A stretch of 33,588 nucleotides of DNA from a virus. The translations under genes were made by a program, and so were the position numbers. Shown here piece by piece: positions 1 through 32,334 of this stretch (positions are counted from its first letter, which is position 1; each line of letters opens with the position of its first letter). The notes under the pieces were generated by a model, which worked only from the letters and a program-made list of their open reading frames with translations, made no database searches and had not been told where the DNA came from. The stretch spans positions 1-33,588 of IMG/VR virus record IMGVR_UViG_3300036791_000712, one strand, 5' to 3'.

Positions 1-239
1 TCGGAGTTCCGCTTCGCTTTCGCGACGGACTTCTGCGCCTTCTTCTCGGCGCTCTTCTCCTTGCGGGCGGCGATTTCGGCCTGCCGGAATTCACGCTTCA
101 CAGCGTAACCGGCTTTCCGAGCGCCGAACACAACGCCGACGAATTCCGACGCGTCCTCGAGCGGGAGAGTAATCGTCTGCTCTCCGTAAGCGAGGGTGAC
201 TTCGTTGCCGGAATCGGACACGGTGAAAGATCCGTTCAT
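1..239 (-). CDS. Unknown small basic protein, 5' part only
   Basis: Reads from an ATG at 239 down to the window edge with no stop (79 codons visible), so the C-terminus is missing. The start is set by a strong SD (GGGAGGTAAC) a few bases upstream on the minus strand. The visible N-terminal half (MNGSFTVSDSGNEVTLAYGE) is mixed and looks beta-rich. The end is a Lys/Ala/Glu-rich, probably helical, basic tail (EKKAQKSVAKAKRNS). No family recognised. It contains two GAATTC sites, part of the local excess described in the findings. The SD and clean frame make the gene likely; the function is unknown. Confidence 0.72.
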   Translation of the reverse strand, partial: MNGSFTVSDSGNEVTLAYGEQTITLPLEDASEFVGVVFGARKAGYAVKREFRQAEIAARKEKSAEKKAQKSVAKAKRNS

Positions 240-303
240 TTTTGTTACCTCCCTGGTAACTAGTAGGTATTAGCCACGGAATGTGGCGTGCGCGAATTCA
301 CAC

Positions 304-352
304 GAATTCTCGCGTACAACGCGCTGCTAGAGTGCGTTCTACGCGAGAATCC
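304..352. repeat. Long near-perfect hairpin
   Basis: ATTCTCGCGTA at 306-316 pairs perfectly with TACGCGAGAAT at 340-350. After one C/C mismatch (317/339), AACGC at 318-322 pairs with GCGTT at 334-338, leaving an 11-base loop. That is 16 pairs with one mismatch. On the minus strand the stem extends by one wobble and one GC pair to 304/352. No T-run follows on either side, so it is not a typical terminator. It lies 65-110 bases upstream of the minus-strand gene that starts at 239, so an operator or leader structure is possible. Confidence 0.75.
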
Positions 353-613
353 CGAAGGATTCCCGCGCCCAGAGAGGGAGGTTCCTATTCGGGTAAATGG
401 CCGCGATAGCTAGAGCCGTTAACCTAGCACTTCCGACGGTTTATCCGCCTAGCAGAGTTCTTCGGAGATTACGCTCCGATCTGCCCTAAGTCTTGGGAGA
501 ATCTTCGTGAATTCCTCTAGCCCGATTTCCGCGCGCCGGACGTCTCTACCGCCTAGAATTAACCGCTAAAGCCCTACTAACGAATTCGCATCCGCGTTGG
601 CAACCGTAGCGAT

Positions 614-658
614 TAACCGGAAGAGATTTCCGAGTAGGATTCGGACTTCTTCCGGTTA
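614..658. repeat. Two-part hairpin
   Basis: TAACCGGAAGA (614-624) pairs with TCTTCCGGTTA (648-658), 11 perfect pairs. Inside it, TCCGA (629-633) pairs with TCGGA (641-645) around a 7-base loop. The architecture (outer stem, small internal loop, short inner stem) recurs at 964-992. Confidence 0.75.
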
Positions 659-963
659 CTAAGGGGTAAATAGCCGACTAAAGTCGTCGGAGCCACTACC
701 GATAGAAATCCCCCTAAAACTCGGGAATCCCTACGATAACCCATCCGTTTTCCGATTTAGCTAGATGCCCGGGAATTTGCGGCCGCGATCTTCCCCGCTA
801 AACCTACGCGCTAGGGAAAACGTTCGTCTAGGCCATCTGTACATTCTAGTACCGGAATTCGGCTTGTAATCTTGCCAGGATTACCGGGACCTACCGCTAA
901 GAACCCGTAAAACGCCCCAGAATTACCGAGATTTCCGGATCGGAAAGAGATCGGAAGAATTCA

Positions 964-1094
964 GGGAACTAGGCTCCGTTCGGAGTATTCCCACCGGATT
1001 TCCGACTCTACCCGCTGCGACGGGGAATCCGGAACCGGCCGCCCGGCGGCTATGGGGCCGGGCGGGAGCGGGTTAAAACCGCCGCTCCGCGGCG
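964..1094. repeat. Cluster of four adjacent hairpins
   Basis: Four stems follow one another almost without spacers: GGGAA/TTCCC (964-968/988-992) enclosing CTCCG/CGGAG; CCGGATTTCC/GGGAATCCGG (994-1003/1023-1032, one G-T wobble); CCGCCCGGC/GCCGGGCGG (1039-1047/1057-1065, perfect 9 bp); and GGAGCGG/CCGCTCC (1065-1071/1082-1088). An alternative CGCCGC/GCGGCG stem at 1080-1094 competes with the last. Confidence 0.7.
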
Positions 1095-1137
1095 AAGTCT
1101 ACCGGGTTGTCACACCGTTTAGGCGTTTACTAGATAG

Positions 1138-1163
1138 AAAACGTCCGCAAATTGCGTGTTTTT
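1138..1163. terminator. Weak terminator-like stem
   Basis: AAAAC (1138-1142) can pair with GTTTT (1158-1162) around a short CGCA/TGCG stem, with T-rich DNA on the 3' side. The stem is interrupted, so this is a weak candidate only. Confidence 0.25.
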
Positions 1164-1354
1164 CGTTCGGTCGCACCTAGGGGGACACTGCATCTGTGCA
1201 GCGGCGAGGGAAGTCCGAGTAAGGTAGGGGTAAGGGTAGGCGGTAGGCGGCTGTTACGGACGATTTGGAGGGCCTTGCAGAGAGGATTTGAGGCTAGGCG
1301 GCTCTACGCCTAGGAACGCTACCAGGAGGGATTTCCGAGTGAATTCCTGGCAAG

Positions 1355-1385
1355 AAAAAGGCCCCAAGTTTCTGGGACCTTTTCC
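1355..1385 (-). terminator. Rho-independent terminator
   Basis: On the minus strand, AAAAGGTCCCA and TGGGGCCTTTT form a stem of about ten pairs around a GAAACT loop and run into a T-tract (CCTTTTTCTT). It begins about 22 bases after the stop of the minus-strand gene 1408-1599, exactly where that gene's transcript should end. Confidence 0.8.
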
Positions 1386-1407
1386 TTACCGGGGTGTGGG
1401 TTGGTTG

Positions 1408-1599
1408 CTAAAAGCTCCGAATTTCCTCCTCCGAGAATTGGTAGCGCAGGGCTGGCTTACCAAGCAATTCTACCCAGTAAAGCGTGGGCAGGATTTGGCT
1501 GGGAATTACGTGGTGCGGTGCGCTAGGCGTGGCGATTTTGATAACGCCTACTTCGCCGGTTTTGTTGACCACGATTTTCTGGCCGACTTCGTAACGCAT
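1408..1599 (-). CDS. Small SH3-like protein of unknown function, 63 aa
   Basis: Starts at an ATG preceded by a strong SD (AAAGGAGGAAGAAA then ATG) and ends just before a strong terminator, so it is a complete monocistronic unit. The sequence opens MRYEVGQKIVVNKTGEVGVI and ends with YQFSEEEIRSF. The pattern of a hydrophobic beta strand, G-x-x-G-x-V turns and a final S-E-E-E-I resembles small SH3/KOW-like beta-barrel proteins common in phages, which often bind nucleic acid or proteins. That resemblance is by pattern only. It is the only confident gene within about 2 kb of hairpin-rich DNA and is transcribed in the same direction as the left-end gene. A plus-strand frame over the same bases (1288-1617) is judged a shadow. 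Confidence 0.82.
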   Translation of the reverse strand: MRYEVGQKIVVNKTGEVGVIKIATPSAPHHVIPSQILPTLYWVELLGKPALRYQFSEEEIRSF

Positions 1600-1667
1600 T
1601 TTCTTCCTCCTTTATAGGTGGCTTTTGCTACCAGGGTAAGTGTACCTGCCCAGGAGAGAGTGGAGCG

Positions 1668-2177
1668 GTGCACCGACGATGGTGTTGTCGAGAGAGGCCG
1701 ATTTGTGTGGTGAATTCGGAAGGTAAAAACTCCGATTTCGTATTCTCTGCGGACTACGTTTACCGTTCCGTAAACGGACGTTTTCCGCGTAGTAAACGCT
1801 CGTACAACTCGGAATCTCTGTTGAGCAGGGGTTTTCCGATCGGGTCCGAAGTACGGCGTGTAGGGTCTGTGCTAAGGCGAGGAAGTCGGAGCCCAGGTAA
1901 GGGGTTGGGTATAGGCTCCGGTGGGCGTTACGGACGATTTCCCCTGCTAATAGGAGAATTTGGAAATTCGGTAGGAAGTCTACGTGCCTATAGCGGTGGG
2001 GTCTACTTCGTAGTCCGGGTGGTAAACGGAATCTACCGGGTGTGGGCAGCGGGTAGGAAGGGCAGATATAGGCTTCAATTAAAACCTCCGATTAGCAGGG
2101 GTTTTTCCGAACTGTGCGGAAGAAGGGAGGCTAAACCCGGATTTCTGTTCGCGTCTTTTTACCCAGGTTTTGCCTAG
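1668..2177 (+). CDS. Doubtful 169-codon open frame
   Basis: A GTG-started frame with a possible SD (AGGAGA) about 12 bases upstream. About 20 stop triplets lie on this strand over the interval and all fall in the other two frames, which is unlikely by chance. Against coding: the product is very rich in Arg, Gly, Ser, Tyr and Val with no recognisable domain, third positions are not GC-biased as in the surrounding phage genes, and the interval is full of hairpins. It may be a fast-evolving or decayed gene, or chance. Confidence 0.2.
   Translation: MHRRWCCRERPICVVNSEGKNSDFVFSADYVYRSVNGRFPRSKRSYNSESLLSRGFPIGSEVRRVGSVLRRGSRSPGKGLGIGSGGRYGRFPLLIGEFGNSVGSLRAYSGGVYFVVRVVNGIYRVWAAGRKGRYRLQLKPPISRGFSELCGRREAKPGFLFASFYPGFA
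2081..2106. terminator. Bidirectional terminator-like hairpin
   Basis: AAAACCTC (2081-2088) pairs with GGGGTTTT (2098-2105) around a 9-base loop, giving an A-run on one side and a T-run on the other, so it could stop transcription from either side. It is followed at once by the TTTTTCCG/CGGAAGAA hairpin. Confidence 0.4.
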
Positions 2178-2393
2178 TGCAGCACGAACTCGAACTAGAA
2201 GTCCTTGATAATGTATATGAAATTGATACAAGAACTCGTGCTCATATGTTTAAACACATAATTCAGTGCAATTACTAGAATTTCTTAGGATTCCTTCCGT
2301 GCGACGGCGCTCCACAAGATTTCTCACTCAAAACACTCAAGTTTTTCAACTACCACACAAGAACTCCCATGGACGACCAAAAACTTCTTCCGT

Positions 2394-2700
2394 GAGAATC
2401 TCGCGCGCGTGGGTAATGCATTGCATCTAAGATCTCGCGCGCGTGCATACGCGACCCCAACCGACTACCACCGTGGATCCTTCGTGATCGCGCTAGCGTA
2501 AGCGCGCGGCTATAAGGAAGAACAAAAGATCTCTTTAATAAAGATAGTAGATCTTAAGATCTCGCGCGTACTCGCCAGCGCTAGCGGGATCACGAGCAAT
2601 CCATCCGCATCCAGTCCAGCCTCGCGTAGCGCGCGGAGATTGTTCAAGCCTCAATTCACAATAAGTAGATCTAAAGATCTCCGCGTGCATGCGTACGCGC
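2394..2700. other. Candidate replication origin with iteron-like repeats
   Basis: The 14-mer ATCTCGCGCGCGTG occurs exactly at 2398-2411 and 2432-2445, with shorter relatives at 2557-2570 (AGATCTCGCGCGTA) and 2675-2688 (AGATCTCCGCGTGC). AGATCT occurs six times (2430, 2527, 2549, 2557, 2667, 2675). Two arms of a 17-base inverted repeat with one mismatch, 2482-2498 and 2579-2595, flank an AT-rich core at about 2511-2560. Iterons, an AT-rich melting region and a large palindrome in a gene-free gap are typical of phage and plasmid origins. A packaging site or regulatory hub is an alternative. No initiator gene is visible in the window. Confidence 0.4.
2482..2595. repeat. 17-base inverted repeat around AT-rich core
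   Basis: The left arm TCGTGATCGCGCTAGCG (2482-2498) and right arm CGCTAGCGGGATCACGA (2579-2595) are reverse complements at 16 of 17 positions. They are separated by 80 bases that contain the AT-rich core and three AGATCT sites. Confidence 0.8.
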
Positions 2701-2793
2701 TACGCGAGGATTTGAAACACGCTATGCTCACGGTTAGGCCGATCGCCGTTAGCCACCTTCTTGAAGAAGCAAGTTCGTTGTCCGGCGCTGGCA

Positions 2794-6116: not shown

Positions 6117-6301
6117 CGTTCGTGATCTGCCCAGTACTTGCACAAGGAACATACTTCGTCATGAACAGAGGCTTGTACTACGTCGTCGACGTCGAGTACT
6201 CACACGATGTCTGGCTCATTGAGAACTGCAAGACCGACGAGTGCTTCTGGATGCCGTCAGAAGAGCTGATTGATGACATTGAGGTGATCGGACACACGTG
6301 A
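6113..6301 (+). CDS. Small acidic protein between terS and terL, 62 aa
   Basis: Overlaps terS by ATGA and terL by GTGA, so it is coupled to both. The sequence (MTFVICPVLAQGTYFVMNRG; then YVVDVEYSHDVWLIENCK; ending EELIDDIEVIGHT) predicts a compact beta-rich domain with an acidic C-terminus. No family recognised. Co-translation with terminase genes suggests a packaging accessory, but this is inference. Confidence 0.75.
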   Translation: MTFVICPVLAQGTYFVMNRGLYYVVDVEYSHDVWLIENCKTDECFWMPSEELIDDIEVIGHT

Positions 6302-31470: not shown

Positions 31471-32334
31471 TTACGTAGATTTTGACCTGCCAAACATGCG
31501 CAAGGCCGGTGCCACGCGGTCCTCCGGGTAGGACCGGGATTCTTTGATAGCCTCTGCTGCCTTGGGGCCGATGAAGTCCTCGGCCATCCTTAGCCACCTG
31601 GTTGACATTCGCTTGGGTGGCGCGCTGATGTAGCGTGGGCCCCACAGCTTGAAGGTCAACTCATGATCCTTGCGGCCCTGGGCAGCCCGCTCTTCCTCTG
31701 TCTGGTACAGTGCCTGAATTCCGCCAGGGTCGCGGGGCTTGTTGACCATGGCGATGTGGCAGCCGGTATGAATGTACCACAGATGACCTGCCCTCAGGCC
31801 GCGCCGGTTCATCTCCTGAGTGTCTAGCCAGCGTAGGCCAGGGTGAAAGTTGCCCGCTGCTAGGCAGAGCTGGGTGTTGATGGCCAGCACGCGGTCCCGC
31901 GCACCGCCGCAGGGGATCACCAGGTTGTCGTGGTTCTTGAGCTCGTTGCCGTTAGGCACCCACAGCCCGTAGTTGGACATCCAGCCGCCGCAGATGATCG
32001 CCTTACCGGCAGCCACAAAGTCTAGCAGCTTGCGGGGATCACCCTTGGTAATCTTCATGTCGTCGTCGGCCATGATGAACGCGTCGACGTTGAAGTTGCC
32101 CGCTATCTCTACTGCCCGCTTGCGTGCGTAGCCGATACCCTTGTTGCTGCGCCTGTGTCCGGACACAAGAATCTCTCTGCCGATGCCTAGCTCCTTGAGC
32201 AGTGCTCTGTGCGTCTGTACCTGACTAGGCTCGGTGAGTAGCAGCATCGGAAGGTTGTGCTCTAGCCAGAGCGGCAGCGTCTTGCGTAGAATGTCAATTC
32301 GATCACGTGTTGGGATGATAACTGCGTAGTTCAA
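31471..32334 (-). CDS. GT-A type glycosyltransferase
   Basis: 287 aa. The N-terminus, MNYAVIIPTRDRIDILRKTL, is the nucleotide-sugar-binding Rossmann-like start of family 2-style enzymes. A basic KGIGYARKRAVEIA helix (residues 65-78) is followed by the metal-binding DxD in FIMADDDMKIT (Asp90-92). Later segments IICGGWMSNYGLWV, HPGLRWLDTQEMNRRGLRAG and YIHTGCHIAMVNKP fit the acceptor side. It starts at TTG, overlapping the HTH gene stop (TTGA). The acceptor is unknown: it could be phage DNA bases, a virion protein or a host surface glycan. Its pairing with ThyX makes DNA modification worth testing. Confidence 0.72.
   Translation of the reverse strand: MNYAVIIPTRDRIDILRKTLPLWLEHNLPMLLLTEPSQVQTHRALLKELGIGREILVSGHRRSNKGIGYARKRAVEIAGNFNVDAFIMADDDMKITKGDPRKLLDFVAAGKAIICGGWMSNYGLWVPNGNELKNHDNLVIPCGGARDRVLAINTQLCLAAGNFHPGLRWLDTQEMNRRGLRAGHLWYIHTGCHIAMVNKPRDPGGIQALYQTEEERAAQGRKDHELTFKLWGPRYISAPPKRMSTRWLRMAEDFIGPKAAEAIKESRSYPEDRVAPALRMFGRSKST

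Follow-up and report, generated by a model that had tools for sequence, protein, structure and literature searches.

In SD-sequestering operon leaders, for example those of ribosomal proteins, an anti-Shine-Dalgarno (anti-SD) strand of the leader pairs with the first Shine-Dalgarno sequence (SD). GOLLD and ROOL are large, elaborately folded phage RNAs, and in GOLLD the 3′ part is constant and the 5′ part variable (PMC12286853). For most phage RNAs of large size, no function is known. According to PMC10470900, which cites Mai et al. 2019, the mycobacterial small RNAs 6C and B11 repress expression by binding, with C-rich unpaired loops, to G-rich sites close to start codons, B11 doing so via C-rich loops that act on a G-rich 5′ UTR. 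In cluster K mycobacteriophages, a stereotyped extended SD named SAS, which goes beyond 16S complementarity, precedes many non-structural genes; in 2011, one reverse-orientation copy was noted in K1 phages, and the reader of SAS was proposed only as 'either RNA or protein' (PMC3203893).

The window, i.e. the whole 33.6 kb virus record analysed here, carries a rightward structural gene cluster with portal and capsid genes (Pfam) and a terminase-like gene at 6298 similar to terminases of cultivated phages; in a DNA comparison of the region with cultivated phages, the terminase gene alone matched. At the left end lies the first gene of a leftward operon (3-239, minus strand, 79 aa, SD CCAGGGAGG), inside which the contig ends. 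The stretch between this gene and the rightward cluster, 240-2760, is almost gene-free. The first-pass annotation had recognised no credible long gene in 240-2180 except a 63-aa minus-strand open reading frame (ORF) at 1408-1599, and this holds. The ORF has a canonical SD, AAAGGAGG, and no family match, and its protein has no close homologues in viral contigs. Together with a terminator-like hairpin, AAAAGGTCCC..GGGGCCTTTTTC (~1383-1352), it forms a minus-strand cassette at 1352-1640. As the relatives examined have no such ORF at the same place, the cassette looks like an insertion into the RNA locus, found in the window phage only. At the other end of the record, a 287-aa protein (31474-32334, minus strand) weakly matches a family of glucosyltransferases (phrog_842, E 2.6e-5) and possibly has a role in DNA modification.

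Dense stems had been reported in 240-2180, and a strand-neutral scan of the RNA region (240-2310) bears this out, with 75 helices vs. 39.5 in dinucleotide shuffles, about a twofold excess. Among them are a perfect 11-bp pair of arms, 614-624/648-658, and longer-range pairs such as 1941-1961/2081-2101 and 870-880/1345-1355. Folding against dinucleotide-shuffled controls, a check proposed at the same time, turned out positive: on the minus strand, 240-1390 is more stable than 40 of 40 shuffles (z -6.4, vs. -3.4 on the plus strand), 1600-2180 has z -3.9 (plus strand -1.8), and 240-2180 as a whole has z -6.3. Only the minus-strand values stand out, since coding controls reach about -3 on the sense strand (0 on the opposite one). 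A local scan of 150-nt segments was mostly unremarkable, with a few outliers, mainly at 226-375 (z -6 to -7), so the folding signal is partly long-range. The strand, which the first-pass annotation left undecided, is most likely the minus strand; counts of G-U vs. A-C oppositions, a measure of wobble asymmetry, were uninformative in this respect. A promoter scan gave no excess over shuffles.

Related loci were sought among IMG/VR contigs via the terminase and a neighbouring 162-aa protein; relatives of the latter were found neither in GenBank (cultivated) phages nor in GTDB genome contigs. Removal of near-identical contigs left about ten lineages: the window, L003, L005/L007, L009, L014, L015, L017, L027, L034, and L029/L048. 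In every lineage the gene-free stretch has a palindrome-rich region on its 5′ side; on its 3′ side, where the contig reaches that far, the leftward operon begins, its first gene being in most cases homologous to the 79-aa gene. All complete loci have a long gene-free stretch, from ~0.6 kb in L034 to ~1.7-1.9 kb in L003 and the window. The sequences of these stretches are mostly unalignable between lineages; a conserved core is common to L005/L007 and L029/L048, and other blocks are common to the window and L003. The core of L005/L029 is absent from the window, which indicates that the interior is modular. The leaders of seven relatives fold better than shuffles, the plus strand being nearly as strong in several of them. 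We consider it very probable that the locus is real, conserved, structured and non-coding, and likely that it represents a minus-strand leader RNA.

From folding, helix density and the recurrence of the same gene-free locus in about ten lineages, this leader is placed at 240-2310 on the minus strand, with its 3′ end at the start codon of the 79-aa gene and an estimated 5′ end. It probably extends to ~2310, where a GUCGCAC box is common to L005 and L007; the full box, GTCGCACGG (2297-2305, minus strand), recurs in L005 and L007, and in L003 as CCCGCACG. An inverted repeat of 10 pairs including two G-U pairs, GCACGAGTTC (2241-2232) / GAGTTCGTGC (2191-2182), spans 2182-2241 on the same strand. 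The adjoining divergent region of the window (2398-2740) is rich in CTCGCGCGCGTG repeats and AGATCT palindromes and has counterparts in relatives: dense CTCGCGCGCGTAC(ACGCGC) and AGATCT palindromes are seen in the window, L003, L005, L007, L009, L014, L015, L017 and L029. They may possibly be operators, an origin or partition sites.

Near the 3′ end of the leader, one element is present in every lineage that reaches there, and it is near-invariant. This sole common element, ACCUCCCUCCCU(G/A), is conserved in L003, L005, L009, L014, L017, L029, L034 and L048; the window has the version ACCUCCCUCUCUG, within the single copy of the anti-SD motif CCUCCCUCUCUGG at 369-381 (minus strand). Each of six records, among them those of 61, 52.5 and 63.7 kb, has a single ACCUCCCUCCCU copy, and a scan of 2.9 million viral contigs for exact 19- and 22-base versions of the motif gave matches in this group alone. 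ACCUCCCUCCCU is exactly complementary to (C)CAGGGAGG, the stereotyped SD of the operon directly downstream. This SD precedes 6-9 leftward genes per locus and essentially no others, rightward genes being without it. In each relative, leftward-strand CAGGGAGG sites are followed by 6-8 ORFs of at least 30 aa, and the plus strand usually holds one CAGGGAGG copy, which is the motif itself. In the 52.5 and 63.7 kb records, the ~7-7.5 kb that directly follow the motif contain, on its own strand, 11 of 11 and 10 of 10 ACCAGGGAGG sites; this search, with ACMAGGGAGG, does not cover the ACAGGGAGG genomes (G001, G005), for which only the individual loci count. The operon-wide relation is thus seen in relatives and not in the window, which holds only one leftward gene of the operon. 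As in SD-sequestering leaders, every lineage whose 3′ domain is complete has a leader strand that is the complement of its operon's SD.

The predicted duplex energies of the motif with the operon SDs range from -15.5 to -20.3, as compared to -10.9 to -13.3 for the 16S tail with the same SDs. With the canonical SD the motif reaches only about -11, and this SD is predicted to favour the 16S tail over the motif. For the 16S tail and the canonical SD we took the general actinobacterial consensus. Minimum-free-energy folds of single sequences pair the motif with the first SD; in the ensemble, this pairing is highly probable in four of eight lineages, with 7-9 expected pairs in L003, L009, L014 and L029, and of low probability in the window, L005, L017 and L034, with 0.1-2.5. 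The motif is constant whether the local SD is CCAGGGAGG, ACAGGGAGG or AGGAGGU, and hence no co-variation between motif and SD is seen. The first SD of the window lies in a hairpin, GUUACC-AGGGA-GGUAAC (244-260, minus strand). In CC-type genomes the SD occupies such a small hairpin, NNACC-AGGGA-GGUNN, the arms of which match better than shuffled arms (p 0.0004); in AC-type genomes the SD is not within such a hairpin. In L017 (3100-4000, minus strand), successive leftward genes have near-identical hairpin leaders ending in ACAGGGAGG (CTAGCGGATGGG..GGTAGC..CCGGCTACC).

The 3′ domain, bounded by the anti-SD motif and the first gene's SD (249-381, minus strand, in the window), is strongly structured throughout the group. 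Its minus-strand z is -5.8 in the window, -9.6 in L003, -8.4 in L005, -4.2 in L009, -5.5 in L014, -5.4 in L017, -5.3 in L029 and -5.4 in L034, with none of 200 shuffles as stable in each case, and -5.7 in L048. The minus fold is stronger than the plus fold in eight of the nine sequences tested. Directly behind the motif, a 12-bp helix, H2, is present in the window (UCUCGCGUAGAACGC, 348-334 / GCGUUGUACGCGAGA, 322-308; minus strand), L003, L005 and L014, with letters that differ between lineages. Double changes affect 8 of its 12 pairs and 95.8% of cells are paired; its covariation is 0.736 vs. 0.288 in shuffles (0 of 500 as high) and drops to 0.18 or less when slid. A further helix, H1 (CGCGGGAAUCC, 367-357 / GGAUUCUCGCG, 352-342; minus strand), is read from the sequence of the window, and an equivalent can be read in L003, L005 and L014. 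H1 and H2 are mutually exclusive since both use one common strand. A second covarying helix, located in the core of L005/L007 and L029/L048, scores 0.861 vs. 0.291 (0 of 500). These covarying helices were picked after inspection. Automatic covariation over the whole RNA is weak, not significant in L005/L007 and with some signal in L027/L034, and in L029/L048 most substitutions within predicted pairs disrupt pairing. The covariation that the first-pass annotation proposed to look for in related contigs is therefore present in individual helices and weak in whole-RNA tests; as the signal from pairwise alignments is weak or not strand-specific, no global fold is claimed.

The best reading of these data is that the large structured leader RNAs form a new class and control translation of the operon via pairing with its SDs. 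We infer the strand and the transcription of the RNA, the direction of regulation and the switch as follows. A long structured 5′ leader would be transcribed leftward from near 2310 toward the 79-aa gene at 239, and its 3′ domain would present one ACCUCCCUCCCU copy to the (C)CAGGGAGG SDs of nearly every operon gene. In the minimal version, the motif would pair in cis with the first SD; pairing may also extend to further SDs, on this transcript or on others. Given a single-copy motif and a many-copy SD, such multi-SD or trans pairing is an extension that the data invite and do not prove. Pairing would compete with the 16S rRNA tail, so that translation of the operon could be repressed or timed, and the exclusive helices H1 and H2 beside the motif may expose or hide it. 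Overall, we lean modestly towards anti-SD control of the operon by its leader RNA. More tentatively, the operon might have a private start code, in which one giant phage leader RNA recognises the non-canonical SD that marks the operon throughout; a single RNA element would then control translation of the operon separately from structural and host genes.

Among the alternatives, a leader acting by attenuation or antitermination appears rather unlikely. Here, terminator-like hairpins and complementary loops would control read-through into the leftward operon, and the C-rich motif would be secondary. Repeated AAAA-CCCC..GGG-UUUU hairpins do occur in the 5′ half of the leader in the window, L003, L005, L009 and L014. 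The example in the window (1941-2106, minus strand) is a terminator-like hairpin, AAAACC..GGUUUU, with arms 2081-2101/1941-1961, whose loop, CCCCUGCUAAU, is complementary over 11 nt to a later segment, AUUAGCAGGGG at 1951-1941; the leader, moreover, sits just downstream of a divergent promoter region. However, a terminator scan found 4 candidates with 4.0 expected from shuffles, and the hairpin units are not seen in L017 and L034, whereas the anti-SD motif is present in every lineage whose 3′ end is covered. Several copies of another small hairpin, GTAGTCCGCCCGGACTACG, occur in L005 (5209-5531, minus strand), within the leader RNA of L005/L007/L003.

A free-standing ornate RNA of the GOLLD/ROOL type, processed from the leader and serving as a scaffold or cage, with the 3′ motif binding ribosomes or SDs incidentally, would fit the size, the phage origin, and the fairly constant 3′ end next to a variable 5′ part, as in GOLLD (PMC12286853). 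Nevertheless, this is improbable, as the leader continues into the start codon without a terminator, its length varies threefold between relatives, and the window has no tRNA genes. Rfam searches of the window and nine related loci gave no matches at the gathering threshold and only weak matches at chance level with a relaxed E-value. Membership of GOLLD, ROOL or HEARO, the covariance models of which the first-pass annotation had proposed to search, accordingly finds no support, there being no match at any threshold used. Of its broader proposal, a large structured RNA, either ornate or of a new class, the new class remains probable in the light of the folding controls, the locus in about ten lineages and the covariation of individual helices; the RNA is probably a leader of the leftward operon rather than free-standing.

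That the palindromes act as DNA, as a replication origin or a packaging or recombination site, is likewise improbable. The palindromic repeats adjoining at 2398-2740, the terminase gene a few kb away and the nearly equal plus-strand folds of several relatives are in line with it, and compensatory changes would preserve cruciforms too; but against it stand the single-copy complement of the operon SDs, the stronger minus-strand folds of the 3′ domain in eight of nine lineages, the multibranch structures in place of simple palindromes, and the fact that in most lineages the stretch directly adjoins the first gene's SD. A plus-strand RNA titrating ribosomes or SD-binding factors with an SD mimic (CAGGGAGGGAGG) is hardly credible, since minus-strand folds are the stronger ones in the window and most 3′ domains and a plus transcript would run into the palindromic region and not into a gene, even though the plus strand, too, beats shuffles in all loci.

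Returning to the leader RNA with its anti-SD motif, it represents a family of very large phage RNAs not described so far, and one whose partner, the stereotyped SDs of an operon, is concrete and can be put to the test. GOLLD and ROOL, which form homo-oligomeric RNA complexes, are closest to it in size and origin. Unlike these RNAs, often located near tRNA islands, it is linked to the start of an operon and an anti-SD motif, in a window that lacks tRNA and tmRNA. It is far longer than SD-sequestering leaders and differs from them in that SDs throughout the operon are matched by one complement. As with 6C and B11, a C-rich stretch would, on complementarity and predicted energies, bind G-rich start sites. 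In contrast to these small host RNAs with their hairpin loops, the element is a phage leader of 0.6-1.9 kb, and its one C-rich motif is specific to a non-canonical SD. An actinobacterial setting for these phages is plausible.

A cultivable parallel in logic may be found in some cluster K mycobacteriophages. The leftward operon does not itself carry SAS: the 13-bp GGGATAGGAGCCC was not found upstream of its starts, where the SD is (C)CAGGGAGG. In both systems many genes are marked by a stereotyped extended SD, which has one counterpart in reverse orientation (within cluster K, in K1 phages). In Anaya this counterpart, like the motif described here, falls in structured sequence that is gene-free, a 385-nt gene gap (z -6.3), in the predicted loop of GCGCGG-CCUCCUAUCC-CCGCGC. 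The gap (L040:31683-32067; JF704106 59682-60066) is conserved, mostly unannotated and near the right end of cluster K genomes; it has homologues in 177 Mycobacterium phage records, and the anti-SAS loop hairpin is present in part of the cluster. By eye, Niklas, Ekdilam, Biglebops, Ximenita and Cain show compensatory changes in the hairpin stem. The loop is the exact 10-nt SAS complement in Anaya, Niklas and Biglebops and has two mismatches in Ekdilam, Ximenita and Cain; co-variation of SAS and loop was not found, SAS being unchanged in Ekdilam and Cain with the loop two bases off. Since the exact loop complement occurs in only part of the cluster and the hairpin was not found in Keshu, Yuna, Scarlett and Pixie, the parallel should be taken as a lead rather than as proof. 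Unlike in the operon described here, the SAS genes, marked by GGGATAGGAGCCC, are scattered and not gathered in one operon behind an RNA, and there is no long leader. If the private start code exists, its logic would extend to cluster K mycobacteriophages, with SAS as the mark and the anti-SAS hairpin as the element that recognises it. This points to a possible answer to the question, standing since 2011, of what reads the cluster K SAS; cultured phages on M. smegmatis offer a way of testing it.
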